A DNA stretch of 64,000 bases from a candidate division LCP-89 bacterium. GTDB lineage: Bacteria > Electryoneota > B3-LCP. Within the stretch, counting starts at the first letter, position 1, and the number at the start of each line of letters is the position of its first letter. This document shows, in pieces, positions 30,566 through 46,466 of the stretch. The stretch covers positions 1 to 64,000 of the forward strand of contig JALGVT010000020.1 in NCBI GenBank assembly GCA_025774555.1. The letters are read 5' to 3'. The translations under genes and the position numbers were made by a program. The notes below the pieces were generated by a model. It did not search any database, was not told where the DNA came from, and saw only the letters and a list, made by a program, of their open reading frames with translations.

Positions 30566-32464
30566 ATGATAGATAAGCTGCGAAGAGACCGGCGTTATGT
30601 CCGGTCTCTTCTGTTTTTAGTATTCACTGCTTCAATACTTGCCTGGGCGGCGAACTTCCTTTCCGCTGGATTTCCCTGGGGTGTCGATGACGGCGTTAAG
30701 CGTGTGACGGCGCGACAATTTACCTCGACAGGATTTAAATCCTGCTTGATTATACCTTCTGATAATTCCTTCAGTGAAGATTTTTTCCCCATAGCTGAAC
30801 CGTATGTCGAGCCGACCACAGGCGGATTTCGCTCTATCTTTCCATCATTCTTTCCGGCTCTCGGCGGGATTTTCTTCGCGCTGTTCGGTTATTTCGGTTT
30901 CTACCTGTTACCAGCGTTCAGCTTGATGGCGTTGTTGGCGCTTTTCAGTGGAAGATTTCTTAAGGCTGAGCCGATAAGCATTAAAACCTGGAGCATCCTG
31001 ATACTCGCCGGTCCGCTTCTCTTTTACGGCATGACCTTCTGGGAGCATGCGTTTGCTCTGCTTATGACTATACCGGTCGTCTATGCCTTATCGAAAAAAG
31101 AGGTGCCTCTTTCCAGATGGCTTATTGCAGGTATATCCTTCGGTCTGGCGGTGTATTTAAGACCTGAGACAGCATTAATGTTTCCGATTGCTGCAGCTAT
31201 TATAGTCCTGAGAATCCCCAGAGAAATCAAGGCGGCTGGAGTATTGACGGCAGGTGTTATAGCATCGTTATCATTTGCTGGACTGTTCGAGTATTACGCT
31301 ACGGGGACTTTCCTTCCAGAGCAGATTTTTTTTAACCTTGGACTTTCGCTGGAATCATTTAATTTATCAGGCAGAGTACGGAGTCTGTTCCTGTTTATTT
31401 TTAACTTTCCCGGTTATCCGAAGCTGGCTTTGATGGTGTTAATCAGCCTTGTGGTTCTTGCGCTTATCACCAGAAAATGGCTAATTGCTGCATTGGGTAT
31501 TCCTATCCTGAGCATAGTGGCGCTCGTGCAGGCATATACAGGCGAATCCGCCTTCGCGATTACAGCATCCAGTCAGGGTCTGTTTTTCGCTTTCCCCTGG
31601 ATAATTATCAGTTTGATTCCCGTAAAAGGCGTTAAAAAACTTGATAACCCCTATTTTATACTGGGGTGGTGCTTCATTATTTTCGCTTATCTGTTCGGAC
31701 CTGATAGCGCCGGTATGCATTGGGGACCACGCTTTATTTTTCCCGCGCTGATACCGCTGGTGTGCTATTCTGTTTCAGTCCTGAAGTCGCTGCCACCTGC
31801 ACAAGTGAAATGGTTCATGATCGTATCTGGCACGGCGGTTCTTTTAAATGCTGCTGTTTCGGTACAGGCTTTGTCAGAAAGAGGAAGAGTCTTACATGAA
31901 GTGGACAACCTCATTCGAGATTCAGGAAGCGAAATCCTGATCCTCGACCGGTGGCATCAGGGCGCAGATATGGAGCCGTTATGGGGGAAAATGGATATCG
32001 GCTGGGCACAGGTTGATGGAGACCGTGAAGAGCTGTTAGTCGCGCTTGAAGAGCGCGCATATAGTGGTGGGATATGCTGGATTCAGTCCGGTGATGAATA
32101 CGATCTGGAGAAGTATCCGGTGATTGTTGAATCATCTGACGAGCTGCCTTCGTATGCAGGTTGGGGAGGAAATCTGCATCTGGTTTATCTGGCTGGATTG
32201 GACGACTTGCGCTGGGGGAATCTGTACTGGCATACTGGGCTCAGGCGCGCTGAGACTGGACAGCTCAGCGAAGCATTGGAATATCTGCAGAAAGCGGCGG
32301 CTATTTTCCCTGCGAGCGCGGACATTTATTATAATTTAGCGGTCTGTTATGGACAGATGGGACATACCCGGAAAGCTATCTCGCAACTCAAGGAAGCCTT
32401 AAAGTTGAATCCAGCGCACACTGCAGCGAGAGTATTAGCGAGAAGGCTGGGTATCATCCCATGA
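30566..32464 (+). CDS. GT-C-type polytopic membrane glycosyltransferase-like protein with C-terminal TPR
   Basis: 632 aa; multiple TMs; C-terminal LYWHTGLRRAETGQLSEALEYLQKAAAIFPASADIYYNLAVCYGQMGHTRKAISQLKEALKLNP. Confidence 0.7.
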   Translation: MIDKLRRDRRYVRSLLFLVFTASILAWAANFLSAGFPWGVDDGVKRVTARQFTSTGFKSCLIIPSDNSFSEDFFPIAEPYVEPTTGGFRSIFPSFFPALGGIFFALFGYFGFYLLPAFSLMALLALFSGRFLKAEPISIKTWSILILAGPLLFYGMTFWEHAFALLMTIPVVYALSKKEVPLSRWLIAGISFGLAVYLRPETALMFPIAAAIIVLRIPREIKAAGVLTAGVIASLSFAGLFEYYATGTFLPEQIFFNLGLSLESFNLSGRVRSLFLFIFNFPGYPKLALMVLISLVVLALITRKWLIAALGIPILSIVALVQAYTGESAFAITASSQGLFFAFPWIIISLIPVKGVKKLDNPYFILGWCFIIFAYLFGPDSAGMHWGPRFIFPALIPLVCYSVSVLKSLPPAQVKWFMIVSGTAVLLNAAVSVQALSERGRVLHEVDNLIRDSGSEILILDRWHQGADMEPLWGKMDIGWAQVDGDREELLVALEERAYSGGICWIQSGDEYDLEKYPVIVESSDELPSYAGWGGNLHLVYLAGLDDLRWGNLYWHTGLRRAETGQLSEALEYLQKAAAIFPASADIYYNLAVCYGQMGHTRKAISQLKEALKLNPAHTAARVLARRLGIIP

Positions 32465-34390
32465 ACTGCTCTTGAGCTGCATCAGTAATTGCTGTGCTTC
32501 AGAGAAGTCAGGTGATATTTCTATGGCTCTCTCTAAAAATTCAAGCGCTCGGTCCAGATAACCCAGTCGTCCCATGGCTAAGGCATAGTTATAGTGATAC
32601 AAGGCATTATCCCCGTTATGCTGAATCGCTCTGAAGAAAATCACCGCCGCTTCTGAAATTCGGTTCTCTGCCGCTTTTGTCAATCCCTGCTTGAATAGGC
32701 TCTCTGCCAGATTGATCCTGGCGTCCGAAAAATAAGGTTGCAGATTTAGCGCTTCTTCGTAATATTTCTGTGCCAACTCATATTGTCCTGCCTCGAATTT
32801 GAGCACACCCAGGTTATTTAAAGCCATAGCATTTTCTGGATTGATAGCCAGCTCTAGTAAGTACTCACTCTCTGCCTTTTTAAGATCACCTTCACGATAG
32901 GCGGCAACTCCCAGATTGAGATGAACGAGAGGATAATCGGGGTCGTATTTCAGCGCCCAATTATACGCCTTTTCAGCTCCGGCGAGATCGCCTTTTTTCA
33001 TGAAGGCATTGCCCAGGCTGAAGTGTGCATGCGGGGCGTTGCTCTCTGCGAAATTATAGGGGCTGACGTTGACGAAAGCGAAAAGCACGGCCAAGACCGC
33101 GAGATCTATCAGATTTGTGCGCTTGAATAAGTTTTTTTTATTATCCAACAGATAGGTTATTGAAATTCCAGTCATGATTAGCAGGAAGGGGACGACTGGA
33201 ATGCGGAATCTTGCGGTGACAAAAAAGGCAATAACGCCCAGCATATACATTGGCACAATCCAGATGAACCAACCCGGGAGCAGCTTTTTTCTGCTACTCA
33301 ACCAGAAACCGAACAGACCCAATGGAGCGACCAGCCAGAATCCGAAAAAGCGCAGGTAAGGCATGATCAGTGTTTCGCTCTCGAAGAAGTATAAGTCGCG
33401 GTTATTACTTATTTCCAGGCGGTTCCAGAAAGCGGTGAACTTGCGGAGGGTCAATTTAAGAGCTTCCCAAGGGTGACCAGAAATGAACTGACAACCCTTA
33501 CGATAGAAATAACTGCTGACTTCAGATGGTTTTAATACTCTGCCTTCTGCCTGATAGGCGAGCATGGACGCCGCGGGCACTTCCCAGTTAGATCCCATCC
33601 CCGGAAGATGCGAGTGCAGTCCATCGGATTCGGTGTTGTTGCCAATATAGAAATTCACTCCGCCGGAAGTAGCCACCAGAACAAAATCACCTCCCTGAAA
33701 GGCGTTATGCCAGGTGACCGGCAGGATCGGGATTAAAAGACCGCAGAACAGCGCGAAACTGCGGATCAGCTTCCCGACAGTCGTTTCCTGAGCGCCGATT
33801 TCATGCTTCATTAAGAGAATATCAATAAGGAATATCGGCGTCAAAATGAGGGCGCTCGGACGAGTAATAACAGCCAGCCCCAGAAGGAATCCGGGTAAAA
33901 GGAGATATGTGAGCTTCTTTTTTGCGCGGGTTTTCGCGTATGCCAGGCAGGTGGACAACAGCAGTGGAACGAATAGAGTTTCAACCAGCAGTTCCCCGTC
34001 GAAATATATCAGCATGCCGTATAAAGCAGAACCAACGCCTGCCATCAGGGCGACACTGCGCCGTTTGGTCAATTCTAAGCCGAGGAGGAAAGTCAGGATG
34101 GCAGTAGCTGTTCCCAGGAGGGTTTGCGCCAGCCTCGCGGCGAAGTAGCTTTCGTTGGTCAGGTGATATATAAAAGCGAGAAAATAGGAGTAGAGGGGCG
34201 CTCTGAAAAAGGGTCCTTCGTGACCGATGCCTTTTTCAATAATATTGCGCGCCCAGGCGTCATGAAATTCAGCATCCACGATGGGCGATTCAAAAAAGGG
34301 CGTGCCTGCTAACTGGCTGACATAGATCAGCCTGACCAGAAAAGCTAATCCTCCTACGAGCGCGACGTCAACAATACTAACCCTTTTCAT
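32435..34390 (-). CDS. GT39-like (PMT/ArnT-type) membrane glycosyltransferase fused to C-terminal TPRs
   Basis: 651 aa; FFESPIVDAEFHDAWARNI first-loop acidic motif, about 10 TM, then HFSLGNAFMKKGDLAGAEKAYNWALKYDPDYP... TPRs. Confidence 0.83.
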   Translation of the reverse strand: MKRVSIVDVALVGGLAFLVRLIYVSQLAGTPFFESPIVDAEFHDAWARNIIEKGIGHEGPFFRAPLYSYFLAFIYHLTNESYFAARLAQTLLGTATAILTFLLGLELTKRRSVALMAGVGSALYGMLIYFDGELLVETLFVPLLLSTCLAYAKTRAKKKLTYLLLPGFLLGLAVITRPSALILTPIFLIDILLMKHEIGAQETTVGKLIRSFALFCGLLIPILPVTWHNAFQGGDFVLVATSGGVNFYIGNNTESDGLHSHLPGMGSNWEVPAASMLAYQAEGRVLKPSEVSSYFYRKGCQFISGHPWEALKLTLRKFTAFWNRLEISNNRDLYFFESETLIMPYLRFFGFWLVAPLGLFGFWLSSRKKLLPGWFIWIVPMYMLGVIAFFVTARFRIPVVPFLLIMTGISITYLLDNKKNLFKRTNLIDLAVLAVLFAFVNVSPYNFAESNAPHAHFSLGNAFMKKGDLAGAEKAYNWALKYDPDYPLVHLNLGVAAYREGDLKKAESEYLLELAINPENAMALNNLGVLKFEAGQYELAQKYYEEALNLQPYFSDARINLAESLFKQGLTKAAENRISEAAVIFFRAIQHNGDNALYHYNYALAMGRLGYLDRALEFLERAIEISPDFSEAQQLLMQLKSSSWDDTQPSR

Positions 34391-34463
34391 AGGAATTGAA
34401 AACCTCTATAATCAATATTCACTTTGCGATTCAGTATATTGTTTATTTTCGGTTCTGGGCAGA

Positions 34464-36494
34464 TCAGGGATTTGCGTTTGTGCCGTCAGATGAAGCCTGT
34501 CCGGTGATCATCTGATAGAGATTCTTTGCCGGTTCATAGTTGGGGTCGATTTGCAGCGATTTCTGCAGTTGTGCCATCGCCGCGTCTTGATAACCCAGAC
34601 GTCCCAGAGTCAGCGCGAAATTGAAGAAATAGTGGGCTTTGCTATCGTCTAACTCACAGGCGCGCTGGAAATAGCCGGCAGCCTGTTCGGTTTCTCCAGC
34701 ATTAGCTTTCTCCAGTCCCATATTAAAAATGCTCTCTGCGAGATTTACCGCTGCTCCTGCGAAATTGGGCTGCAGATTATAAGCTTTATCATAGTACTGC
34801 ATCGCTTCTTCCAGCTTGCCCTCTTCAAATCTCAGCGCGCCGAGGTTGTTCAATGCCATGGCATCGTTAGGATTTACTTCAAGCTCTTTTAAGTATTCCT
34901 CTTCTGCCTTCCTGGGATCACCCTGTTTATAGGCGATCATTCCGAGGTTTAAATGAGCTAATCCGTAGTTGGGATTCTCTTCAAGAGTCTTGATGTATTC
35001 ACCTTTGGCGGCTTTTAAATCTCCTGAAGTCATGTGGACGCCGGCGAGGCTGAAATGCGAATGCGCCGCATCGACCTGGAACTCGATCAAGTTGCTATTA
35101 ACGAAGATCCCCAACCCGATAAGAATGGCGATCAGGACGAGCTTATCTCTGCGGGTTGCGCCAGGTTCGCGGCTCAGGAGTTGCATGATTGCAACTCCTG
35201 ACATTATCAGCAGTAGCGGAATAAGAGGCGTGCGGAAACGCGCCGTGACGAAGAAGGCGATGACGCTTAAGGTGTACACCGGGATAGACCAGATGAACCA
35301 GCCAGGCAGCAGTTTTTTCCTCCAGCTCAGCCACCAGCCGAGAAGTCCTAAAGGAGCGAGCAGCCAGAAGCCCAAAACTCTCAACAGGGGCATTATCCAA
35401 GTTTCTCCTTTGAAGAAGTATAAATCGCGGTTATTGGCGATTTCGCGATGATTCCAGAATGCGTAGAACTTTTTCACCATCAGCTTAGCCCAGTCCAGGG
35501 GCATGTTGACGATATACTGTCTGCCTAACTTATAGTAATAGCTGCTGACTTCGGATGGTTTCAGTAATCTGCCTTCCGCCTGGTACGCCAGTTGTGATGC
35601 GGAAGGGACATCCCAATTGGGACCCAAGCCGGGAATATACGAATGAAGTCCATCAGATTTGGAGTTGTTGCCGATGTAGAAGTTGAATCCTCCCTGACTG
35701 GAGATCAGCACCATATCGTTTCCCCGGATGACGTTATGCAGCGTAACCGGCAGGATAGGGAGGAGGCAGCCTATGAGCAGCAACAATCCGGCGATGGATC
35801 TTTTAAGCAGGGGGAGTTCAGATCCGGATTCTCCTTTCAGCGTGAACAGATCTATGAGGAATATGGGCAGGATAACCAGGGCGTTGGGGCGGGTGATAAC
35901 TGCCAATCCAAGCAGGAGTCCCGGTATTAAAAGATGCCAGTCTTTACCGCTATTGCGAGTTCGGTGATACGCCAGCAAGGCGGCTAATAGAAGAGGTATA
36001 AAGAGTGTTTCCAGAAGCAATTCTCCATCGAAATAGACCAGCATGCCGTACAGAGCCGAGCCGACACCCGCAATCAAAGCGATAGCTCTTTTCCTGGTCA
36101 AAGAGAGAGCCAGAAGATATGCTAAGACGGCGGTTATCATTCCGAGGAACGCTTGCGGCAGCCTGGAAGGGTAGCTTTCGCCTCCGGTTAGCATATAGAC
36201 CGCGCCGAGAAAATATGGATATAGGGGCGCCCGGAAGTAGACACCGTCAAATCCGGTGTTCATTCGCAACAGCTCCAGTACCCGGTTGTCATGGTACCGT
36301 TCTATGGATTTTTCGCCCTGTTTGCTGATTTCCATGTCATTGAGAGATCTCGCCCAGGTATCGTGGTATGATGTGTCGAACCAGATGGGAGTATCGAAGA
36401 AAGGCGTGTGTGCCAGTTGACCGATGTAAACTACTCTCACAGCAAGGGCTAAGACGGCTACTATCAGCAGGTCGATGAGAATATTTCTTTTCAT
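34464..36494 (-). CDS. GT39-like membrane glycosyltransferase fused to C-terminal TPRs (tandem paralog)
   Basis: 676 aa; closely resembles the adjacent 651-aa protein along its length (e.g. LPVTWHNAFQGGDFVLVATSGGVNFYIGNN vs LPVTLHNVIRGNDMVLISSQGGFNFYIGNN). Confidence 0.85.
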   Translation of the reverse strand: MKRNILIDLLIVAVLALAVRVVYIGQLAHTPFFDTPIWFDTSYHDTWARSLNDMEISKQGEKSIERYHDNRVLELLRMNTGFDGVYFRAPLYPYFLGAVYMLTGGESYPSRLPQAFLGMITAVLAYLLALSLTRKRAIALIAGVGSALYGMLVYFDGELLLETLFIPLLLAALLAYHRTRNSGKDWHLLIPGLLLGLAVITRPNALVILPIFLIDLFTLKGESGSELPLLKRSIAGLLLLIGCLLPILPVTLHNVIRGNDMVLISSQGGFNFYIGNNSKSDGLHSYIPGLGPNWDVPSASQLAYQAEGRLLKPSEVSSYYYKLGRQYIVNMPLDWAKLMVKKFYAFWNHREIANNRDLYFFKGETWIMPLLRVLGFWLLAPLGLLGWWLSWRKKLLPGWFIWSIPVYTLSVIAFFVTARFRTPLIPLLLIMSGVAIMQLLSREPGATRRDKLVLIAILIGLGIFVNSNLIEFQVDAAHSHFSLAGVHMTSGDLKAAKGEYIKTLEENPNYGLAHLNLGMIAYKQGDPRKAEEEYLKELEVNPNDAMALNNLGALRFEEGKLEEAMQYYDKAYNLQPNFAGAAVNLAESIFNMGLEKANAGETEQAAGYFQRACELDDSKAHYFFNFALTLGRLGYQDAAMAQLQKSLQIDPNYEPAKNLYQMITGQASSDGTNANP

Positions 36495-36506: not shown

Positions 36507-37385
36507 TTATGGAGGACTTAACTGTCTCACTATCCAGGGTGTAATTTCAGTGATTGCACCGGGAAGAGGTTCCTCTATGGGCTCTGAATTGCCAGTCCAT
36601 ATCAGCGGCACTGGATTTGTGGTATGTGTTCTCACGGTATTGTCTTCTATGTTACCATGATCCGATGTAATGATAACGTTCATCTCTTCCGAAGCGGCGA
36701 AATCCAACACAGTTCTGATGAAATTGCTGAGTTTTTCAATATGCAGCGATATTGCTTCTCTGTTACCTCTGTGGGCTATAACGTCCGTCAGGAAGTGTTC
36801 ATAAAGGGTAAAGTCGTGCTTCAATGCCAGTTTTACCAGCAGTTCACCAGCCTGTTGAGGTGTTAATAATGGAGCTTCATAGCCGTTTTTACGCAGTTCT
36901 TCGTTGGTGAAGTCATGGTAAAGCGCGTCTCCTGCCTCGATGTCGCTTATCGAACGAAACGGTTTGCCTGCTGCCTTGAAGGCGTGGCTGGTTACCGACA
37001 AACGGCTATGCGGTTCGATATCTTCCGGGTGACGGTAAGCGTTAGCAAATGCGGCGTTCAACCCTGCTGTTTGGAGCTGTACAAATATGCTCCTCTCCTG
37101 CAGAATTTCGATCAATGCTTTTGACGGGAATCCCTGCTTGTGTCTGCCGATGACCTGCGGCGCGTTTACGCCGGTCAAAAGAGCAGTCTGTCCGGTGGCG
37201 CTCTGCGGCAGACCGTCCACGCCGAGGCAGGCGTCACATGAAGTCCACTGTAAGCCGGGACGCTTTGACCCATCATTCCCACAGGGCCAGAGATCGGGGT
37301 GTGCGGTTAAGGGATTGGTGTTCGGATCGGGTTCTCCGATTCCCAGACCATCTATGAATATCAGTAGTATTTTTCGCAAGTTCAC
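36507..37385 (-). CDS. Alkaline phosphatase/iPGM-superfamily metalloenzyme
   Basis: 292 aa; KILLIFIDGLGIGEPDPNTNPL, GVDGLPQSATGQTALLTGVNA, VIITSDHGNIEDNTVRTHTTNPVPLIW. Confidence 0.8.
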   Translation of the reverse strand: MNLRKILLIFIDGLGIGEPDPNTNPLTAHPDLWPCGNDGSKRPGLQWTSCDACLGVDGLPQSATGQTALLTGVNAPQVIGRHKQGFPSKALIEILQERSIFVQLQTAGLNAAFANAYRHPEDIEPHSRLSVTSHAFKAAGKPFRSISDIEAGDALYHDFTNEELRKNGYEAPLLTPQQAGELLVKLALKHDFTLYEHFLTDVIAHRGNREAISLHIEKLSNFIRTVLDFAASEEMNVIITSDHGNIEDNTVRTHTTNPVPLIWTGNSEPIEEPLPGAITEITPWIVRQLSPP

Positions 37386-37554: not shown

Positions 37555-38679
37555 ATGATTGTGGACAACCTGATTCTCTATTTACAGTTTATCTGCCTGG
37601 GAACCGCCTGTTTGTTTTCAGGTTTCCTATATATTGGTTTAGGGCGCAGGGAGAAGTGCGGATCAGGAGAATTTGTTCCGGTTTCCGTGCTGGTTGCGGC
37701 GCGCAATGAGGAAGATGTAATCTTAAGGCTGCTGGAGAGCCTTAAAGCGCAGGATTACCCGCATGATCTAAGCCAATTCGTGATCATTGACGACGGATCT
37801 GCAGACCGAACCGCCAGTATAGTTACAGAGTTTTGCGAGTCAGATGGGCGTTTCAAACTGATCCAATTGGAAGATTCCCCCGAGAGGTCGATGGGTCCTA
37901 AGAAGCGCGCTCTGACAGAAGGATTGAAGACTGCAAAAGGCGATATCATAATCACGACCGATGCGGATTGCGTGGTAAAAGCGGGCTGGATCAGCGGCAT
38001 CGTTTCATGCTATGATGGTGATACAGCGGTCGTATGCGGTGTAGTTAAATACGAAAAGCAGAAGGGATTCTGGGCACGATTAGCCGCCTTTGAAGGGATT
38101 ATAGGCGCTATTTTAAATTGCGCGGTTATTAACATGGGCGGCGCGCTGAGCAGTTCGGGGGGAAATTTCTCTTATCGCAGAAGTGCATTTGATGATGCGG
38201 GGGGATTCGATACCGGCGGAAGTTCGCTGTCTGGAGATGACGACCTTTTACTGCAGAGAATTCATCGCAGCGGTGGAAAGCTACGATTCAACCTCAGCAG
38301 GGAGACAACCGTATTAACAGCAGGACCGACTGATTCCGCGAGTTACTGGAAGCGGAAACGGAGGCATCTCTCAGCGGGAAAACGGTATTCAGCGAAGTGG
38401 ATCGCCCTGGCTGCAATCATCTATCTGGGCTGTCTTTTGACCGTTTTTCAGGGTGGTATGTATCTGGCTTTCAGCGCTGCAGACCATCGTTTCCTATTTG
38501 GCTGGGGATTATTCAGCCTGCTGCTATTTGTCGCTTTCTTCCGAGGGACGCGGCGCTTAGGTGAAAACGGCTACTTGCTGTTCGGAGTCATTGGGGCGAT
38601 TATATTTCCTGTCGTTTTTATTTTGATACATATATTAACCTTGTTTCCATCGCCTGCCTGGAAGGGGCGGAGAACTTAA
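37555..38679 (+). CDS. Family 2 glycosyltransferase (membrane)
   Basis: 374 aa; VSVLVAARNEEDVILRLLESL, FVIIDDGSADRT, GDIIITTDADC, YWKRKRRHLSAGKRY. Confidence 0.9.
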   Translation: MIVDNLILYLQFICLGTACLFSGFLYIGLGRREKCGSGEFVPVSVLVAARNEEDVILRLLESLKAQDYPHDLSQFVIIDDGSADRTASIVTEFCESDGRFKLIQLEDSPERSMGPKKRALTEGLKTAKGDIIITTDADCVVKAGWISGIVSCYDGDTAVVCGVVKYEKQKGFWARLAAFEGIIGAILNCAVINMGGALSSSGGNFSYRRSAFDDAGGFDTGGSSLSGDDDLLLQRIHRSGGKLRFNLSRETTVLTAGPTDSASYWKRKRRHLSAGKRYSAKWIALAAIIYLGCLLTVFQGGMYLAFSAADHRFLFGWGLFSLLLFVAFFRGTRRLGENGYLLFGVIGAIIFPVVFILIHILTLFPSPAWKGRRT

Positions 38680-38698
38680 TAATTGACCAGTCCTGCAA

Positions 38699-39733
38699 AT
38701 GGATCCATTAGAAAAAACAGAGCCGGTCTCAATACTTGCAGACGCAGAGCGGAAAGAGAGGCGGGATCAGTCCGTTTCTAGCAGCATGCGTGCGCGTCTG
38801 TTCTTCTGGGGTAAGATTGTTCTTACTGTCGGTGTGCTTCTACTCCTTGTCGCCACGATTCATCCGCGTGAAATAGCTGGAGCATTTAGCGGAGCGCGTT
38901 TCTGGCTCGTGATAGTCAGCTTGATTCTGGTTATCCCCAATCTCGGTCTGCGAGCGATGAAGTGGGGCTATCTGCTGAGACAGGTCAAGCCCGAGGCGAC
39001 CGCCCGCGAGATCTGGGACAATCTCATGGTCGGTTTCACTTTTGCAGTGGTTACTCCAGGACAACTGGGAGAATTCGGGCGCGCTTTTTTTATCACCGGC
39101 AGACCTCGACTCGAATTGATCGGGCTGACATTTATTGATAAACTGTATAACCTGCTTCCGATTATCTTAGGCGGAGCGCTCGGACTGCTCTTTATACCAG
39201 GGCTGGTCTATGGCGGCAACAGTTATGTCTTTGTCTCCAGTTGTATTTTAGTGGGACTGCTGTGGGCAGTGATGGGTTTAATACTGGTTTCGCCGCGCTG
39301 GATCAGGGATCTGTTTTATGCCATCAATGTAATGCTACCTTACCGGGATAAGGTCAAGGTGTTTTTAAGTGGTCTTGATCCGATTCACCTCAGGCAATCG
39401 CTGGTATTGACTGCACTCGGTCTGGGACACTACTTCGTTTCCATCGTTCAATACTATCTGCTGGTACTCTCCTTTCAACGGATCGGGTTTTTCGAGGCTT
39501 ATTCCGCCGCATCATCGACGCTTTTCACTAAAGCAGCGCTGCCTATATCAATCGGCGGGCTGGGAGTGGGAGAAACCGCTTCAATCGGCTTTTTCAGGTT
39601 GTTCGGCGTCGGTAAGGCTGCCGCCTTCAACAGTTCGGTCATGCTCTTTTCCATGAACGTTTTAATGCCTGCGGTGCTCGGGTTCTTCATTCTCCTGAAG
39701 CTGCGTATTGTCCGGGAGAACGGCGATGCCTGA
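38699..39733 (+). CDS. Lysylphosphatidylglycerol synthase TM-region/UPF0104 family membrane protein (flippase-like)
   Basis: 344 aa polytopic; TFAVVTPGQLGEFGRAFFI, FTKAALPISIGGLGVGETASIGFF. Confidence 0.8.
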   Translation: MDPLEKTEPVSILADAERKERRDQSVSSSMRARLFFWGKIVLTVGVLLLLVATIHPREIAGAFSGARFWLVIVSLILVIPNLGLRAMKWGYLLRQVKPEATAREIWDNLMVGFTFAVVTPGQLGEFGRAFFITGRPRLELIGLTFIDKLYNLLPIILGGALGLLFIPGLVYGGNSYVFVSSCILVGLLWAVMGLILVSPRWIRDLFYAINVMLPYRDKVKVFLSGLDPIHLRQSLVLTALGLGHYFVSIVQYYLLVLSFQRIGFFEAYSAASSTLFTKAALPISIGGLGVGETASIGFFRLFGVGKAAAFNSSVMLFSMNVLMPAVLGFFILLKLRIVRENGDA

Positions 39734-40922
39734 TTTTCCCTGGGAGCCTTTCTGGACCTTACTGCTACTGTTTTCCGGGTCGGCGTACCTGTTTACGTTA
39801 AACAGGATCGTCAGGGGACTTGTAAATCTTCCGCTGGCAAATGCTCAACGACAAGCCCAGGAATGGCAGCCGAAAGTCAGCGTAATTATCCCCTGCCGCG
39901 ATGAAGCGGAGCATATCGGGCTGGCGCTGGACGATCTGGGCAAACAGGATTATCCAGCAGAGTTAATCCAGATCATCGTTGTAGATGACCGCTCAGCGGA
40001 CGGCACCGGCGATGAAGCTCGAAGCAGGAAGGAAAAACTCCCTAATCTCACGGTGGTCACAGTTGACTTCTGTCCGGAGGATGTTTCGCCAAAGAAACAC
40101 GCTATTCTGCAGGGACTGGCGAAAGCTGACGGAGAGATCATCATCACCACTGACGGCGACTGCCGCTTCAAACCGGGATGGATCAAGGAGATGATCGCCT
40201 GCTTTGCGCCGGACGTTGGAGTAGTCGCCGGATTGACGGTCTTCGACCGGAACATAGAAGAGCCGCACTGGCAGAAAATACAGCAGACCGATTATCTATC
40301 GCATTCCTTCTTCGCCGCCGGAGCTATCGGTTCGGGGATGGCGTTCAACTGCAACGGCAGCAATCTGGCTCTGCGCAGAGAAACCTTCGAAGAGAGCGGC
40401 GGGTACGACCAGTTCAGCCAGGTGGTTACCGGTGATGACACTCTGTTGATACAGCGGATCAAACAGAACGGGAAATGGCGGATACATTTCTGTACGTATC
40501 CTGAAACCATCGTTCGTTCCCGCCCCGAGGAAACTCCTGCTCAGGTTTTCAATCAGCGGCTTCGATGGGGATCGGGCGGGCTTTCTTACAGTCCGACTGC
40601 ATTAGCGCTTGGATTGACGACTTTTGTTTTTTTCTTGAGTCTGTTTCTTTCGCCTCTCTTCTGGCTGGGAGGTTTAGTATCAGCCAACTGGATGCTCTTC
40701 TTTGTTTTAAAAGCGGCGCAAGAAGTGAGGGTAATGAAACGGGGCTGGCAAATCTTCGGTATAACAGAGAACTGGCAAATTTTCTCTATCCTGGAACTGC
40801 TTCACATACCTGCGACCTTGATTTTTGCCATCGGCGGACATCTATGGGGATTCCGATGGAAGGGGCAGAAATTCAATCGAACCCGGAAACATATAAACCT
40901 ATCTGAAACAATCACTAAATGA
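39726..40922 (+). CDS. Family 2 glycosyltransferase
   Basis: ATG at 39726 overlaps the previous gene; KVSVIIPCRDEAEHIGLALDDL, IIVVDDRSADGT, EIIITTDGDC, VFNQRLRWGSGG. Confidence 0.9.
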   Translation: MPDFPWEPFWTLLLLFSGSAYLFTLNRIVRGLVNLPLANAQRQAQEWQPKVSVIIPCRDEAEHIGLALDDLGKQDYPAELIQIIVVDDRSADGTGDEARSRKEKLPNLTVVTVDFCPEDVSPKKHAILQGLAKADGEIIITTDGDCRFKPGWIKEMIACFAPDVGVVAGLTVFDRNIEEPHWQKIQQTDYLSHSFFAAGAIGSGMAFNCNGSNLALRRETFEESGGYDQFSQVVTGDDTLLIQRIKQNGKWRIHFCTYPETIVRSRPEETPAQVFNQRLRWGSGGLSYSPTALALGLTTFVFFLSLFLSPLFWLGGLVSANWMLFFVLKAAQEVRVMKRGWQIFGITENWQIFSILELLHIPATLIFAIGGHLWGFRWKGQKFNRTRKHINLSETITK

Positions 40923-41962
40923 TCAGATTACTGCCACCGTCTAAGATGTGGCGGGTTGCCCGCTACCTTTACCAGAATCGCCGCATGGGAGCTGGAGTTT
41001 ATCCTTTTTACGCTTCTCTGAAAGTAACCGATCTGTGTGGTTTCCGCTGTTCATTCTGCAACGTCTGGAAGAATCCGGCAAAGGATATGGACACGGAAGA
41101 CGTTAAGAAGGCGCTGCGCAATCTGGGGCAGTCATCGGTCGTACTGACTTCGATAGAGGGCGGTGAGCCGCTCCTGCGCAAGGATATAGAGGAGATATTA
41201 AGAGCCGCTCATGAACAGCCGTTCTACCTGCTCTTCACCACCAGCGTCAAGAATATTCTGGATTTTCCACTGGATAAATACAGCCAGTGGATCGATCTGT
41301 TTCACATCTCAATCGACGAAGGGCATGATAATCTTGAACTTTTCGACGCGCTTCCTGAACTGATAAATTACCCCTGGATTCTCTGCGTGCAAACCGTGGT
41401 CAGGGACTGCGATCTGGAAGCTCTGCCCGAAAAAGTGCGTCGCTGTGCAACGTGTGGCGCGAAAATCCTGATCATGCCCGCTGTGGAATTAGACGATGCT
41501 GAACATAGTTATCCCGATCCCGCGCAGTTCAGGTCAGAAGTCATGGAACTGAAGCGCACCTACCCCAATACTGTCCTGACGCCGCGCCGCTATCTCGATG
41601 CCATCAACGGTGAATCGGGTTGTTCTGCCGCTTCGATCATCATCGACAGCGACGGCGGACTCTTCTATCCCTGCCGCACGTTGATCGATAAACCGGTCAA
41701 CCTGACAGAAACGTCGCTGATCGAATACCTCGAAAGTGATGACGCTAAGGAACGCCGTAAAGCGATGAAAAACTGCGACCGGAATTGCGGCTGGTACCAG
41801 TATTTCGCCATTGATTTCTTCACCGCCCCGGGTGAAGTTTTAGATTCCCTGCGACCCTACTGGGCTGACCTGTTAGGGCTAAGATCAAAAAATCCACCGG
41901 ACAAGAACCGATATGCTCCCCTGGAAATATCCCGGATTTCTGACCAGGATTCTGCTGCCTGA
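40919..41962 (+). CDS. Radical SAM protein with C-terminal Cys-rich (SPASM-like) region
   Basis: 347 aa; CGFRCSFCNVWKNP (CX3CX2C); C-terminal CSAASIIIDSDGGLFYPCRTL...NCDRNCGWYQ. Confidence 0.88.
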   Translation: MIRLLPPSKMWRVARYLYQNRRMGAGVYPFYASLKVTDLCGFRCSFCNVWKNPAKDMDTEDVKKALRNLGQSSVVLTSIEGGEPLLRKDIEEILRAAHEQPFYLLFTTSVKNILDFPLDKYSQWIDLFHISIDEGHDNLELFDALPELINYPWILCVQTVVRDCDLEALPEKVRRCATCGAKILIMPAVELDDAEHSYPDPAQFRSEVMELKRTYPNTVLTPRRYLDAINGESGCSAASIIIDSDGGLFYPCRTLIDKPVNLTETSLIEYLESDDAKERRKAMKNCDRNCGWYQYFAIDFFTAPGEVLDSLRPYWADLLGLRSKNPPDKNRYAPLEISRISDQDSAA

Positions 41963-42578
41963 AGCTGTTTTTCGGGCTGATCCTGAGGATAATCGCATTT
42001 ATCTGACCTACGATGATGGTCCCGATCCTGAAGTGACGCCGGAACTGCTGGATATTCTGGCGCAGCGGGATGCGAGGGCTGTTTTTTTTGTGGTGGCAGA
42101 TAATGGTGATTGGTGGAGGGATATGATCGCTGAGATTGCCAGTAAAGGTCATCGTATAGCTCTGCACGGGCTGCAGCATAAATCGAAATACCTGAAATCC
42201 AACGCGGCGCTTTATAAGGAACTCCTCGAACTTGCGTCGAAGATCACAGGTTCCGGTGGAGTTCCCGCTTCTGCCTATCGCCCACCTTTTGGACATATCC
42301 GCCCGGACACCGTTTATTTTTTGAAGCGGAAAGGAATTCAGACTGTTCTCTGGTCTATCATTCCCGGCGATTTTCGCCGCATGAAAACGGGCGAACTCTA
42401 CCGGCGCGCCATGCGCAGTCTCCGCCCCGGAGATATCCTCGCGCTGCACGACGGGACGCGCCTTCGACCCGCGCCGACCTTGGAATTGACTAAAAGACTG
42501 CTGGATGAATTCCAACGCCTCAACTGGCGCTGCGAATGCCTGGATCTGCCGGAATTAAACCTGGTGGATCATGGATAA
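41913..42578 (+). CDS. Polysaccharide deacetylase (NodB homology)
   Basis: 221 aa; IYLTYDDGPDPEVTPELLDIL, GHRIALHGLQH, YRPPFGHIRPD, DILALHDG. Confidence 0.9.
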   Translation: MLPWKYPGFLTRILLPEAVFRADPEDNRIYLTYDDGPDPEVTPELLDILAQRDARAVFFVVADNGDWWRDMIAEIASKGHRIALHGLQHKSKYLKSNAALYKELLELASKITGSGGVPASAYRPPFGHIRPDTVYFLKRKGIQTVLWSIIPGDFRRMKTGELYRRAMRSLRPGDILALHDGTRLRPAPTLELTKRLLDEFQRLNWRCECLDLPELNLVDHG

Positions 42579-43659
42579 TCTTATCTTTATAATCGGCGCG
42601 CTTTACACAGGTGTCGCGCTTTTCCTCTGGATTGGTTTAAACCGGAAGTATTCAGGAGAGCAGAAACAACCGGTCGAAAACGCTTCGTTGATCATCTGCG
42701 CGCGCGATGAAGAGAAGAATCTTCCTGATTGTCTGGCATACATCGAAGAGCAGACCATAGATCCCGAACGATTTGAGATTATTCTGGTGGATGACGCATC
42801 GCAGGATAGCACCGCAGAATTGATGGAAAAATTCGCCGAAGAGAGCCGCTATCCGGTGCAGGTTTTACGGCTGCCACCCGCAGAACCGGGGGAACCGTCA
42901 GGTAAATGGCGTCCCCTTAAAGAGGGGATTAAACTTGCGAAAAATGACGCTTTCCTGATGACGGACGCGGATGCTCTGCTGTCGCCTTCGTGGGCAGAAG
43001 TGCATCTGCAAGCGCTGGCAGACAGTGACACTGCCGCTGGTTTCGTCCTGATTACGGGAAACGCTTTGTGGAGTCAGGTGCAGCGTTTGGATTGGCTGTT
43101 CATACTGGGATCGGGCAGCGCTATGGCGAAATGGGGCAGACCGCAGTCCGCGTTGGGAAAGAACATGTCCATCCGCCGTTCAACGTATGAAGAAATCGGC
43201 GGATACGACGCGATTGGATTTTCACTGACTGAAGACCTGGCGCTGGTGCAGGCTGTCGCCAAGCAGGGAGGACGGCAATCTTATCCTTGTTCACCTGAGA
43301 TGACGGCAGCGACCACAGCAACGCCAAGCTGGGGTGAATTTATACAACAGCGAAAGCGGTGGGCAAGCGGATTGCTACATCTCGGCTTTATAGGCAAGGC
43401 GCTTATAGCGCTGATGGCGCTCAGAAACTTAGCGATTATTTACTGCTTTTTTGCGAGCTTATCAAGCTTTTTTTGGATCTGGGTAATTACCGCCGCCGCC
43501 AATCATCTGATTCTTCAAAGAATCGCTTCAAAGCTCGATAGTCCCTTCAGCCTTAAATCTTTTATCCTCTGGGAATGTTTCCAAACGTGGACGTCTCCGG
43601 TGCAGGTATTGCAGATGCTTGCCAGCAGGGGAGTGGAATGGAAGGGGAGGAAACACTAA
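42571..43659 (+). CDS. Family 2 glycosyltransferase
   Basis: 362 aa; ASLIICARDEEKNLPDCLAYI, FEIILVDDASQDSTAEL, DAFLMTDADALL, FIQQRKRWASGLLHLG. Confidence 0.9.
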   Translation: MDNLIFIIGALYTGVALFLWIGLNRKYSGEQKQPVENASLIICARDEEKNLPDCLAYIEEQTIDPERFEIILVDDASQDSTAELMEKFAEESRYPVQVLRLPPAEPGEPSGKWRPLKEGIKLAKNDAFLMTDADALLSPSWAEVHLQALADSDTAAGFVLITGNALWSQVQRLDWLFILGSGSAMAKWGRPQSALGKNMSIRRSTYEEIGGYDAIGFSLTEDLALVQAVAKQGGRQSYPCSPEMTAATTATPSWGEFIQQRKRWASGLLHLGFIGKALIALMALRNLAIIYCFFASLSSFFWIWVITAAANHLILQRIASKLDSPFSLKSFILWECFQTWTSPVQVLQMLASRGVEWKGRKH

Positions 43660-43705
43660 GAAGGGAAAGTAATTATCACTGTGAAGTATAATAACAAAAC
43701 CTGAC

Positions 43706-43920
43706 AAAACGCTTCACCTGACCGCTATTCCGCTGCGCCTCAAAGCGGCAGGTGAGCTTGATCGTCAGGCAAAGGATAAAATATGAGTAAAATTATTGTA
43801 CTTCTTCTTGTACTTTCAGATTTACTTTTTACAGAAGTCATTTATGTCCCGCAAATATCAGACACTTACTAAAAGTAAAATAAAATAGTAACCCAGAATA
43901 TTTATCCTTTATCCTTTTAT
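43706..43920. repeat. Palindromic/heptamer repeat region between coupled genes
   Basis: CACCTGaCCGCT ... AGCGGCAGGTG hairpin at about 43718-43755; GGCAAAGGATAAAATAT and ATATTTATCCTTTATCC inverted; tttatcc-tttatcc heptamers at 43901-43914. Confidence 0.55.
43783..43872 (+). CDS. Possible 29-aa hydrophobic microprotein
   Basis: ATG at 43783 preceded by AAAGGA; MSKIIVLLLVLSDLLFTEVIYVPQISDTY*. May simply be repeat-derived. Confidence 0.2.
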   Translation: MSKIIVLLLVLSDLLFTEVIYVPQISDTY

Positions 43921-43926
43921 TGAATT

Positions 43927-44895
43927 ATGCTTCTCGTCTGTAATTACTACTTAACTCTGCGGTGCAACGCACGCTGTACCTTCTGTGATCTGTGGGAGAA
44001 GGCTGACGCGCCGTTAGCGGATACCGAGACCGTTCTGCAGAACATTCGGCAGATCCGCGCGGCGGGAGTGCGCATCATTGATTTCACCGGCGGTGAACCG
44101 TTGCTGCATCCGGATCTGCCGCTATTCCTGGCAGAAGCGAAGCGCCGTCGGTTGAAAACAACCGTGACGACAAACGGAATGCTCTACCCGAAACGCGCCG
44201 AGAAACTGCGCGGATTGATTGATCTGTTTCACATATCCATAGATGGAGCTTCGTCGGAGACTCACAACCGTCTGCGAGGCATTGATTGCTACGATAAAGC
44301 GATAGAATCCATTGAATTAGCGGTTTCGCTGGGCGAACAACCCGATCTGCTCTTTACGGCGAATGCCGATAATTACCTTGACGTGACGCCGCTTGCTGAA
44401 TATGCTCGGAAGTCAGGATTGGTACTGATTGTCAATCCGGTTTTTGAAGCATGCGGCGGCAAGGGACTTCTGAATCGAGAGCAGTTATTGGAATTGGAGG
44501 GTCTCTGCCGCAAACCGAATGTTTATCTGAACGGCGGAGTATTCAGCATTATGAAAGACGGCGGCGTTGACACCGATAATCCCCGCTGCCGCGCAGTTTC
44601 TTCGACAGTTGTTATTTCGCCGGAAAACGAACTGTTGCTGCCCTGTTTTCACCAGATGAATTCGTCCGTTCCCATCAATGGGGATCTCAAGAGAACGTTG
44701 AACAGCGCTGAGCGTCGTGAAGCGCTCGCTAAACAGGGACGGTATCCTTTCTGTCAGGGCTGCACCATCAACTGCTACTTAGCTCCTTCATTGCCGTATC
44801 GCATGGATCGCTATTTTGCCGCTTTTCTTCCCTGGGCGGCGAAATACCTGTATTACCGGTATCTTTTCAAGATAAAGCATTCAAGGACTACCTGA
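43927..44895 (+). CDS. Radical SAM protein with SPASM-like C-terminus
   Basis: 322 aa; CNARCTFCDLWEKAD; DFTGGEPLLHPDLPLFL; C-terminal CRAVSSTVVISPENELLLPCF...CQGCTINCYL. Confidence 0.9.
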   Translation: MLLVCNYYLTLRCNARCTFCDLWEKADAPLADTETVLQNIRQIRAAGVRIIDFTGGEPLLHPDLPLFLAEAKRRRLKTTVTTNGMLYPKRAEKLRGLIDLFHISIDGASSETHNRLRGIDCYDKAIESIELAVSLGEQPDLLFTANADNYLDVTPLAEYARKSGLVLIVNPVFEACGGKGLLNREQLLELEGLCRKPNVYLNGGVFSIMKDGGVDTDNPRCRAVSSTVVISPENELLLPCFHQMNSSVPINGDLKRTLNSAERREALAKQGRYPFCQGCTINCYLAPSLPYRMDRYFAAFLPWAAKYLYYRYLFKIKHSRTT

Positions 44896-46466
44896 TGTTA
44901 CCCGATTTCCCCACCGGCTTTTTACCCTTAGCGGCTCTCTACCCGGAGATTCACTACCGTTTCCGGGCGTTGCCTCTGAGCCGTTATTTCCGCCGCCAGC
45001 CTGAGATTGTGGCAGACGTCCCGCGACGCCTCGATCCGGGTGAAGCTCTGCCTGTTCTCTTGATCGTCAAAGACGCTGACCGTTTTCCAGTTACGTTAGT
45101 CAATGCACAGGTCGAAGCTGTGGCAAATGACCGGCATATCAGTCGGACGATCCAGTTTGACCGGGAGTTGGTGAAGCAACGCTGGTGGCATTGGATTCTG
45201 TGGATTAACCTGCCGGATGAAGCGCCGTGCAGGTGGGAAGTCAATGTTATCTGGACAGTTGAGATCAAGGGTAAGATTGCCACAATCACGAATGATAACT
45301 ACGCCGTCACCTCAAGACTTCTGACCGTCAATCAGCCGGGTGAAAGAATTCCCCGAGAGGACGGCTGGATCTTAGGCGATCTGCATGTTCACACTGCTTT
45401 TACTGAAGATCAAGTGGAATTCGGCGCGCCTTTATCCGCCTATCCAGCGTTGGGCAAAGTTGCAGGCTTCAGCTTTGCCATGGCTGCGGATCATTCCTAC
45501 GATCTGGACGATTTTCCCGGATCATTCATCGAGTCCGATCCGCAGTTGACGCGCTTCAAAGCGCGGGCGGTTCAAATTGCTCGATTGAATGCCGAACATG
45601 AGACGGATTTCTGCATATTGCCGGGATATGAACTGAGCGTTGGCAATAGTAAGAGGCGAAACGTTCATCTGCTCCTTCTGAACCAGAGCAATTTTCTTCC
45701 GGGATCGGGAGATGCGGCTGAACGGTGGTTGGAAACCAAGCCGGAGCTATCCATTGGTGAAGCGATCCATCAGATGGACGGCGACGCTATTGCTATTGCT
45801 GCTCACCCGATGGCTAAGACGCCGTTGCTGCAGAAACTCCTGCTCCACCGGGGAGACTGGGAAGAGCAGGATTTTCAGCACGAAGAGCTTACCGGTCTGC
45901 AGATATGGAATGGGATCAATAACGGCGAGCTGCAACGCGGCGTAAAGAGATGGGTTGGCGGTTTGCTTGAAGGCAGAAGATGGAAAATCTATGCGGGAAG
46001 CGACGCGCATGGCAACTTCAACCGTCATATCAAGGTGGCAAAGCCGATGCTGACTCTGGCGGAATGTCCGAATCAGAGATTCGGCGAGGTCTGGACGGGT
46101 GTTCAGATGCCCGGAGCTTGTAACGCCAATGATTTGATAAATGCGTTAGCATCGAAACCAAGTGTAATCAGTAACGGACCGTTTGCCGCTGTCGAAAAAA
46201 CGCGGTCTAACAAAGAATCGCACGAAGTTCAGGTCCGAGTGTCAAGCAGCGCAGAATTCGGAGCGCTTTCGAAGGTTGTGGCTTACGCGGGGAAAACTGG
46301 CTGGGAATCCGAGAACATTTTCCTTAAAGAGCGGTTGACGGGTGGTTATCAGCAGGAGTACAACTTAGCGATGCCAGAAGCTGCTGATTACGTGCGGGTG
46401 GAAGTTGCGACTGATACCGGCAGGCGGGCTTATACCAATCCGTTGTATCTCAACGGCTCAGCGTAA
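44895..46466 (+). CDS. PHP-domain/CehA-McbA family metallohydrolase
   Basis: 523 aa; GWILGDLHVHTAFTEDQVEFGAPLSAYPALGKVAGFSFAMAADHSYDLDDF; IAIAAHPMA; YAGSDAHGNFN. Confidence 0.85.
   Translation: MLPDFPTGFLPLAALYPEIHYRFRALPLSRYFRRQPEIVADVPRRLDPGEALPVLLIVKDADRFPVTLVNAQVEAVANDRHISRTIQFDRELVKQRWWHWILWINLPDEAPCRWEVNVIWTVEIKGKIATITNDNYAVTSRLLTVNQPGERIPREDGWILGDLHVHTAFTEDQVEFGAPLSAYPALGKVAGFSFAMAADHSYDLDDFPGSFIESDPQLTRFKARAVQIARLNAEHETDFCILPGYELSVGNSKRRNVHLLLLNQSNFLPGSGDAAERWLETKPELSIGEAIHQMDGDAIAIAAHPMAKTPLLQKLLLHRGDWEEQDFQHEELTGLQIWNGINNGELQRGVKRWVGGLLEGRRWKIYAGSDAHGNFNRHIKVAKPMLTLAECPNQRFGEVWTGVQMPGACNANDLINALASKPSVISNGPFAAVEKTRSNKESHEVQVRVSSSAEFGALSKVVAYAGKTGWESENIFLKERLTGGYQQEYNLAMPEAADYVRVEVATDTGRRAYTNPLYLNGSA

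Follow-up and report, generated by a model that had tools for sequence, protein, structure and literature searches.

Organization of the LCP-89 cluster

The window, the whole 64,000-nucleotide stretch of LCP-89 DNA that was analysed, carries eight open reading frames at 37555-46466, in the order GT2, flippase-like protein, GT2, radical SAM, NodB deacetylase, GT2, radical SAM and PHP (A to H below). The features of the cluster and its flank are:

32435..36494, reverse strand: two PMT-like (GT-C) membrane proteins with C-terminal TPRs (34464-36494 and 32435-34390; PF13231/PF02366 plus TPRs), possible partners
36507..37385, reverse strand: iPGM-like metalloenzyme of the alkaline-phosphatase superfamily (PF01676, 57 bits), possible partner; adjacent and divergent in relatives at 56-59% identity
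37386..37554, no strand: intergenic region between divergent genes, probable promoter region; same arrangement at the related loci L007, L009 and L010
37555..38679, forward strand: A, membrane GT2 glycosyltransferase, 374 aa (PF00535, 94 bits; TM-like segments); syntenic in L007, L009 and L010
38699..39733, forward strand: B, LPG_synthase_TM/UPF0104 (MprF-AglD-like) flippase-like membrane protein, 344 aa (PF03706, 88 bits)
39726..40922, forward strand: C, membrane GT2 glycosyltransferase, 398 aa (domain match, motifs)
40919..41962, forward strand: D (rSAM1), radical SAM enzyme, 347 aa (PF04055, 46 bits); the most widely conserved member of the cluster
41913..42578, forward strand: E, NodB-family (CE4) deacetylase, 221 aa (PF01522, 87 bits); 50-nt overlap with D
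42571..43659, forward strand: F, membrane GT2 glycosyltransferase with QxxRW, 362 aa (domain, motifs); retained in the L011 and L078 cores
43660..43926, forward strand: 267-nt F/G spacer, A+T-rich (34% GC) with a strong hairpin; absent from relatives
43927..44895, forward strand: G (rSAM2), radical SAM enzyme, 322 aa (PF04055, 88 bits)
44895..46466, forward strand: H, PHP metallohydrolase of CehA/McbA type, 523 aa (NF038032), with an extra N-terminal region

The successive junctions from A to H measure +19, -8, -4, -50, -8, +267 and -1 nt, taking the start of C as the ATG at 39726 (the program-made ORF list gives a TTG at 39708). The first-pass annotation had reported the same eight-gene order and domains, as well as overlaps of 8, 4, 50, 8 and 1 nt; both are borne out, the latter at five of the seven junctions, with the domain of H being borderline in the window copy. 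Its description of the cluster as translationally coupled holds for these five overlapping junctions but not across A/B (+19 nt) and F/G (+267 nt). The F/G gap is about 6-31 nt in relatives, and thus the 267-nt spacer is peculiar to the LCP-89 genome; it also contains the only small ORF noticed, of 29 codons. B, C and E lie on the same strand in one tightly packed run, such that a glycosyltransferase, a deacetylase and a UPF0104/MprF-like flippase are grouped as in one operon, with co-transcription predicted from this layout. Promoter and terminator scans gave little above shuffled sequences.

Motif inspection revealed intact catalytic motifs in both radical SAM enzymes, E and H, and DxD-type motifs in the GT2s; A has the DxD-type motif and lacks the (Q/R)xxRW motif. 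B shows 65-67% identity in relatives and is one of just three flippase genes genome-wide, while NodB genes number four. E retains the CE4 motifs TYDDGP, HGLQH, RPP and LHD, which place it in the NodB/CE4 family, and a motif and segment scan found neither a signal peptide nor a TM segment in it; the segment scan likewise showed no TM-like or signal segment in D, G and H. Against NF038032, H scores 72.7 bits (cutoff 80) and its homologue in L044 scores 92; its metal-ligand motifs HVH, DH, HP and SDAH are invariant across phyla.

The two radical SAM enzymes

The motifs CGFRCSFC and CNARCTFC, of the CxxxCxxC form, place D and G in the radical SAM superfamily, and the top Foldseek matches of their AF2 models (pLDDT 86 and 83, respectively) are radical SAM enzymes. 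Each has an invariant C-terminal set of cysteines, candidate ligands of an auxiliary Fe-S cluster as in SPASM/twitch enzymes (C235, C252, C286 and C290 in D; C221, C240, C276, C279 and C283 in G), and domain searches gave no match to SPASM (PF13186) or to a B12-binding domain in either protein. D further displays a basic N-terminal helix with a mean net charge of +2.8, a region covered by its HpnH match; the amphipathicity of this helix is just 1.6 sd over shuffles.

The best-scoring curated model for both is PTO1314 (TIGR03961), at 52.5 bits for D and 103 for G, with D homologues in relatives reaching up to 78 and a G homologue 106, all far below the cutoff of 306. By these sequence comparisons, D and G belong to no characterised radical SAM family. 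Naming their reactions by fold was rejected, as the matches to SkfB, SuiB, PqqE and BlsE at TM of about 0.6 are too generic. We also rejected a defence role suggested by viperin scores (PADLOC): the scores, of 36-71 bits, come from generic similarity in the N-terminal radical SAM part, and D and G sit among glycan genes.

Conservation and gene order across lineages

The cluster is present in five of the six same-family genomes examined, one without NodB in place (L007). A four-gene core of rSAM1-GT2-rSAM2-PHP is found in another family: L011 has D-F-G-H, and L078 has F-G-H at a contig end. Loci from Ignavibacteriota/Bacteroidota display the same order, GT2-flippase-GT2-rSAM1-NodB-GT2-X-PHP, in which X is an MJ1255-type glycosyltransferase replacing rSAM2; L063 has GT2-flippase-GT2-D-NodB-GT2 followed by the MJ1255 glycosyltransferase and PHP genes, and L068 the same first six genes, with the locus stopping within the last GT2. 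The Zixibacteria loci L025, L050 and L053 show flippase-NodB-GT2-D-G. In the Thermoplasmatota archaea, rSAM1 adjoins a flippase and glycosyltransferases, and about half of the D relatives are archaeal. G was not found in 11 genomes tested from other lineages; among the genomes surveyed outside LCP-89 and Zixibacteria, D is the only one of the two radical SAM enzymes found.

By chance, a flippase or a NodB gene would lie within 5 kb of D in about 1% of cases each per lineage, reflecting the rarity of flippase and NodB genes in the genome. Given this figure and the recurrence of the gene order in other phyla, the cluster is not a chance grouping. NodB is missing from the cluster of L007 and from the archaeal loci examined; not every version therefore requires an amino sugar. 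A link between FCB bacteria and Thermoplasmatota through archaeal ether lipids was considered and is not supported: the GGGP-synthase-like PF01884 does not track D, being over cutoff in 21 of 39 genomes of the phylum and in five of the six of those with D.

A predicted pathway for a membrane-anchored amino sugar

Gene identity, the intact motifs, the lack of export signals in D, E, G and H, and the ordered co-conservation are the observations on which our model is built. Its claim, our favoured reading although we regard it as evenly poised, is that the cluster produces an amino sugar anchored in the membrane and exports it: the sugar would be deacetylated and remodelled by radical chemistry while facing the cytosol, and then flipped. 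In the putative order of steps, the GT2 C (or A) would attach an N-acetylhexosamine, the presumed donor sugar, to an acceptor lipid on the inner side of the membrane, and the cytosolic NodB-type enzyme E would take off the acetyl group. D and G may then modify either the sugar or the lipid before it leaves the cytosolic side, with C-H abstraction potentially leading to epimerisation, dehydration, decarboxylation or a ring change. The remaining GT2s would extend the product, H might hydrolyse an ester, phosphoester or carbamate bond in maturation or recycling, and B is predicted to flip the product to the outer leaflet. As TM-like and signal segments are absent from D, E, G and H, deacetylation and the radical steps should come before export.

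We infer that the product is a glycolipid, in preference to a surface glycan or a polyprenyl-linked donor. The first-pass annotation had likewise proposed an amino-sugar-modified lipid, or a lipid-linked glycan, that is radically remodelled and exported; this gains from the ordered co-conservation and from the parallels to HexSDF/GpgSDF and HpnI-K-J discussed below, whereas the NodB step is not universal. It had named two ways in which it could fail, a lack of co-conservation and the falling of the radical SAM enzymes into a family with a known unrelated substrate: the set is kept across phyla, and no characterised family accommodates D or G. The basic N-terminal helix of D, and the presence of D in flippase neighbourhoods of Thermoplasmatota, speak for the model. 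Counting against it, the amphipathicity of that helix is modest, NodB is missing from some loci, no fold match is specific to a reaction, and D has no tracked partner family inside 6 kb in Delongbacteria and Fibrobacterota.

A broader and more tentative possibility is that D represents an undescribed radical SAM family modifying a lipid-linked sugar in bacteria of several, mostly FCB-type, phyla and in Thermoplasmatota, with the LCP-89 cluster as its most elaborate form, making a membrane glycolipid that two radical SAM enzymes remodel and in which no hopanoid is involved. If true, this would mean that uncultured sediment-type bacteria contain a hitherto unknown type of membrane amino-glycolipid (or lipid-linked sugar) that owes its structure to radical chemistry, and that they have one of the radical enzymes in common with Thermoplasmatota archaea. 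It would also provide a candidate genetic marker for orphan lipids of anoxic settings and give two uncharacterised radical SAM families a testable substrate.

Alternative readings

A serious, albeit unlikely, alternative is that the cluster supplies protein or surface glycosylation with a sugar carried on polyprenyl phosphate. In this reading, the GT2s would charge the carrier, E would deacetylate or deformylate the sugar, the radical SAM enzymes would remodel it, B would flip it and the PMT-like GT-C/TPR proteins would transfer it outside. ArnC/ArnD and FlmF2/NaxD offer a precedent for E-like deacetylation or deformylation on a polyprenyl carrier. The genomic contexts are consistent with this in several respects: two divergent PMT_2/TPR proteins lie beside the cluster, one copy being kept there in L007, L009 and L010; in Thermoplasmatota, D has a flippase and a large multi-TM protein nearby; and a divergent D gene directly follows a polyprenyl synthase in L091 and adjoins a sugar nucleotidyltransferase in L087 and L088. 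Further, UPF0104 and PMT-like genes are predicted to form glycosylation systems in an earlier study (PMC5898192). Yet the PMT-like genes run in the opposite direction to the cluster and had no counterpart beside it in the other phyla surveyed, and no cluster protein matched a polyprenyl-phosphate-specific GT2 family above cutoff among the curated models.

That the cluster assembles and trims an extracellular polysaccharide or capsule, with the GT2s as polymerising synthases, appears distinctly improbable. Wzi-like outer-membrane genes at L025, L053 and L023 and DUF1207 genes at L044, L055, L063 and L077 do point to a surface glycan, and count against our glycolipid model, and the GT2s score 59-68 bits to PgaC/IcaA. 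These PgaC scores are, however, far under the 422-bit cutoff; the copolymerase, Wza, Wzx and Wzy are absent among the eight genes; and E lacks the signal peptide that polysaccharide deacetylases destined for export carry.

The maturation by D and G of a ribosomal peptide or protein, decorated by the glycosyltransferases, was rejected as very unlikely: the top Foldseek matches of D are the RiPP maturases SkfB and SuiB, but the TM-scores near 0.6 and 15-20% identity arise from the common radical SAM fold, and there is no conserved precursor gene, the 29-codon ORF sitting in a spacer missing in relatives.

The first-pass annotation had contrasted the cluster with hopanoid maturation, noting an unrelated deacetylase and no squalene-hopene cyclase, and both points hold. 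The LCP-89 genome has no match to PF13243 (squalene-hopene cyclase), nor have the D-carrying genomes G010, G012, G014 and G037, with a weak partial match in G011. The hopanoid deacetylase HpnK is of the YdjC-type family; E matches the NodB-type PF01522 and no HpnK model. The resemblance it had drawn between the radical SAM enzymes and HpnH/HpnJ does not extend beyond generic radical SAM similarity: against HpnH, D and G score 38.9 and 45.2 bits (cutoff 225), and HpnJ is not among the 25 best-scoring models listed for either. The HpnI equivalog gives 41, 80 and 56 bits for A, C and F (cutoff 310), and C also has a sub-cutoff score of 90 bits to HpnB. With no protein at an Hpn cutoff, no squalene-hopene cyclase and no B12-domain match in D or G, the cluster is, as far as sequence can tell, not a hopanoid cluster. 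A diverged but true bacteriohopanepolyol maturation cluster is hence extremely improbable, for although the enzyme classes of HpnI, HpnK and HpnJ recur with weak HpnB, HpnI and HpnH scores, none of 39 genomes has HpnH over cutoff and about half of the D relatives are archaeal.

Comparison with known systems

Among the best matches of the radical SAM enzymes, the PTO1314 family is of unknown function, and we found no paper on it. The best solved-structure match of G is the cytosylglucuronate decarboxylase BlsE (7vob; sequence 61 bits, fold E 7e-13, TM 0.6), at 20% identity; BlsE acts on a soluble nucleoside sugar, and the match does not imply a shared reaction. In archaea, flippases of the UPF0104 family (arCOG00899) are encoded close to PMT-like and AglD-like enzymes, and a role in glycosylation is predicted for them (PMC5898192); the combination of flippase, glycosyltransferases and PMT-like membrane enzymes recalls the surroundings of the LCP-89 cluster, and no radical SAM partner figures in the passages considered here.

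In hopanoid maturation, GlcNAc is added by HpnI, deacetylated by HpnK and remodelled by the radical SAM enzyme HpnJ, with HpnH being a further radical SAM enzyme (PMC12583986). The LCP-89 cluster shares these enzyme classes and their logic, as the first-pass annotation had rightly seen, and differs in its deacetylase family, its extra GT2s and PHP protein and the lack of a squalene-hopene cyclase. HpnJ is the only documented case of a radical SAM enzyme remodelling a sugar bound to a lipid that we found in the literature on such pathways (PMC12583986). In the literature searched, mostly open-access papers, we found no earlier description of the combination of radical SAM, LPG synthase and polysaccharide deacetylase.

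Two other systems, not named in the first-pass annotation, share the synthase-deacetylase-flippase module represented here by C, E and B. The HexSDF operon of Clostridioides difficile encodes a glycosyltransferase together with a polysaccharide deacetylase and a flippase of MprF-like type, and yields the aminohexosyl glycolipid HNHDRG (PMC10128005), while the glycosyltransferase, deacetylase and UPF0104 flippase of GpgSDF in Pseudomonas aeruginosa yield GlcN-phosphatidylglycerol, its deacetylase being thought cytosolic (PMC12713373). By the papers' descriptions, the glycosyltransferase families differ from those of A, C and F, HexS being annotated as an MGDG synthase rather than a GT2, and GpgS as GT4; GpgD is COG3233. 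Both systems comprise three genes: GpgSDF is without a radical SAM or PHP gene (PMC12713373), and the term 'radical SAM' is absent from the HexSDF paper (PMC10128005). HexSDF and GpgSDF are the closer characterised parallel, with HpnI-K-J matching in logic, and the LCP-89 cluster is probably a new elaboration of an already known type of lipid pathway.

Organization of the cluster and its surroundings

Positions 37555-46466 of the forward strand are filled by eight ORFs, A-H, assigned by domain matches:

A, + strand, GT2 glycosyltransferase
B, + strand, flippase-like LPG_synthase_TM protein
C, + strand, GT2
D, + strand, radical SAM enzyme (rSAM1)
E, + strand, NodB-type deacetylase
F, + strand, GT2
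G, + strand, radical SAM enzyme (rSAM2)
H, + strand, PHP hydrolase of the CehA/McbA type

The successive junctions measure +19, -8, -4, -50, -8, +267 and -1 nt, with ORFs called mechanically and some start positions possibly wrong; the five overlaps reported in the first-pass annotation are thus correct, while A/B and F/G do not overlap. Catalytic motifs are complete in D, E, G, H and the GT2s, whose sugar and acceptor specificity is not readable from sequence. We saw no TM-like or signal segment in the sequences of D, E, G and H, which points to the cytosolic face as the site of both deacetylation and radical chemistry. The 267-nt F/G spacer (43660-43926; 34% GC) holds a hairpin-forming segment (about -31 kcal/mol) and an ORF of 29 codons. 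It is absent from the relatives, whose F/G gap is only ~6-31 nt, and is therefore a local feature; no second copy was found within the window.

Upstream, 30566-36494 codes for three large membrane proteins whose C-terminal parts carry TPRs. The minus-strand pair matches PMT_2 and resembles TMTC-like GT-C enzymes, and one PMT-like/TPR gene keeps its place adjoining the cluster in three relatives. Divergent from A lies a small iPGM-like metalloenzyme gene (36507-37385, minus strand), kept at the same spot in three relatives (56-59% identity), with a PF01676 match confined to its C-terminal third. Downstream, a BatD + TPR protein forms a single 833-aa ORF (47218-49719, minus strand), split into two ORFs in the related loci L007 and L010; it belongs to a Bat/vWA cluster that comes next in the relatives as well.

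The radical SAM enzymes

For both D and G the best curated model is PTO1314, of unknown function (52 and 103 bits, respectively, against a cutoff of 306), and with the HpnH model they reach 39 and 45 bits (cutoff 225). HpnH did not exceed its cutoff in any of the 39 genomes surveyed from the phylum. Good AF2 models (pLDDT 86 and 83) retrieved SkfB, SuiB, PqqE and BlsE for D and BlsE, SuiB, MoaA and anSME for G by Foldseek (TM ~0.5-0.7); these modeled folds match a radical SAM domain with a C-terminal Cys-rich extension and nothing more specific. An auxiliary cluster is likely in both, judging from cysteines invariant in 48 sequences of D (C235, C252, C286, C290) and in ten of G (C221, C240, C276, C279, C283). 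D also has a basic, weakly amphipathic N-terminal helix, which the HpnH match spans.

Phyletic distribution and conserved contexts

The source genome is a draft (3.37 Mb, 86 contigs, 94% complete) from a small phylum, of which 39 genomes were surveyed. "LCP-89" is shorthand here for its family, whose named relatives include "candidate division LCP-89"; further bins of the clade are labeled Calditrichaeota and Zixibacteria. All or nearly all relatives are drafts or metagenome bins, in which mislabeling is possible and contig ends cut clusters. D was seen in six genomes: five of the six from this family, counting that of the window, and one more; G occurs in these six and in one whose contig stops just short of the expected D position. 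The eight-gene order is complete in L010 and extends as far as the contigs do in L008, L009 and L079. L007 has D and F without the intervening NodB, and L011, from a second family, only D-F-G-H.

We scanned 85,462 species genomes with an alignment of D, using the peptide patterns CGWYQYF and [FY][RH]C[SP]FCNV, so that the conservation seen in these motifs partly reflects how the loci were selected. This recovered 65 loci (43-75% identity to D) from Zixibacteria, Delongbacteria, Marinimicrobia, Ignavibacteriota/Bacteroidota, Fibrobacterota and Latescibacterota, about half being from Thermoplasmatota/Euryarchaeota archaea. D has a scattered distribution, being present in 28 of 197 Thermoplasmatota, in 5 of 119 members of the Zixibacteria phylum and in 1 of 197 members of that of L063. 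G was sought in 12 genomes and turned up in one, from Zixibacteria.

Two Ignavibacteriota/Bacteroidota loci (L063, L068) display GT2-flippase-GT2-D-NodB-GT2; L063 continues with an MJ1255-type glycosyltransferase where G would stand, then PHP and DUF1207 genes, and L044, L055 and L077 show D-NodB-GT2-MJ1255-PHP-DUF1207. Zixibacteria (L025, L050, L053) have flippase-NodB-GT2-D-G, preceded in two by a Wzi-like and one further gene, which in L053 (949-3656) encodes a third, SPASM-type radical SAM protein upstream of the flippase; L025 is similarly arranged. Marinimicrobia L023 reads MJ1255-GT2-D-Wzi-flippase-GT2. Most archaeal loci feature a divergent flippase, followed by D, a GT4, a large multi-TM protein and an MJ1255-type glycosyltransferase, and divergent archaeal D homologs adjoin a flippase (L090) or sugar nucleotidyltransferase (L087, L088). 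In a single case (L091:1-2153, Thermoplasmatota), such a homolog comes immediately after a gene for a polyprenyl synthase (PF00348, 271 bits). In Delongbacteria and Fibrobacterota no tracked partner family was found within 6 kb of D. Delongbacteria L018, L020, L021, L024, L026, L027, L043 and L057 carry D at one fixed spot free of glycan genes, between a 2'-5' RNA ligase-like and a large ATPase-like gene.

Since the window genome has only three LPG_synthase_TM and four Polysacc_deac_1 genes, the probability that a member of one such family would fall by chance within 5 kb of D is ~1% for each family in one genome. Such proximity recurs for the flippase in LCP-89, Zixibacteria, Ignavibacteriota/Bacteroidota, Marinimicrobia and archaea, three of which show it for NodB as well; multiplying the chances presupposes independent lineages, which inheritance or joint block transfer would break. 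Under both scenarios the genes have stayed together as a block. Each main group clusters together in the D tree (a quick method with a long-branch warning), which is no proof of how D spread.

Predicted function and relationship to known systems

We give about even chances to the likeliest reading, that the cluster synthesizes a lipid-linked amino sugar, which would be deacetylated, remodeled by the radical SAM enzymes and flipped. This rests on analogy with the amino-sugar lipid operons and hopanoid maturation, and on the archaeal flippase/glycosylation neighborhoods. The main rival, that the cluster supplies a polyprenyl-linked donor to the adjoining PMT-like/TPR proteins, appears rather unlikely. 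Membership in the hopanoid pathway, whose HpnHIJK-like logic the first-pass annotation had invoked for a candidate glycolipid cluster devoid of a hopanoid synthase, failed in every test made.

Archaeal UPF0104 flippases are described near PMT-like and AglD-like enzymes, with a predicted role in glycosylation (PMC5898192) that fits the archaeal neighborhoods of D. The HexSDF (PMC10128005) and GpgSDF (PMC12713373) operons combine a glycosyltransferase, a deacetylase and a UPF0104/MprF-like flippase to make amino-sugar lipids, a layout that, going by the published descriptions, the cluster shares. Hopanoid maturation relies on HpnI to attach GlcNAc, on HpnK for deacetylation and on the radical SAM enzyme HpnJ to form the cyclitol ether (PMC12583986), a logic that the cluster likewise resembles on descriptive grounds. 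The cluster unites the HexSDF/GpgSDF layout with the HpnI-HpnK-HpnJ logic, built from other protein families.
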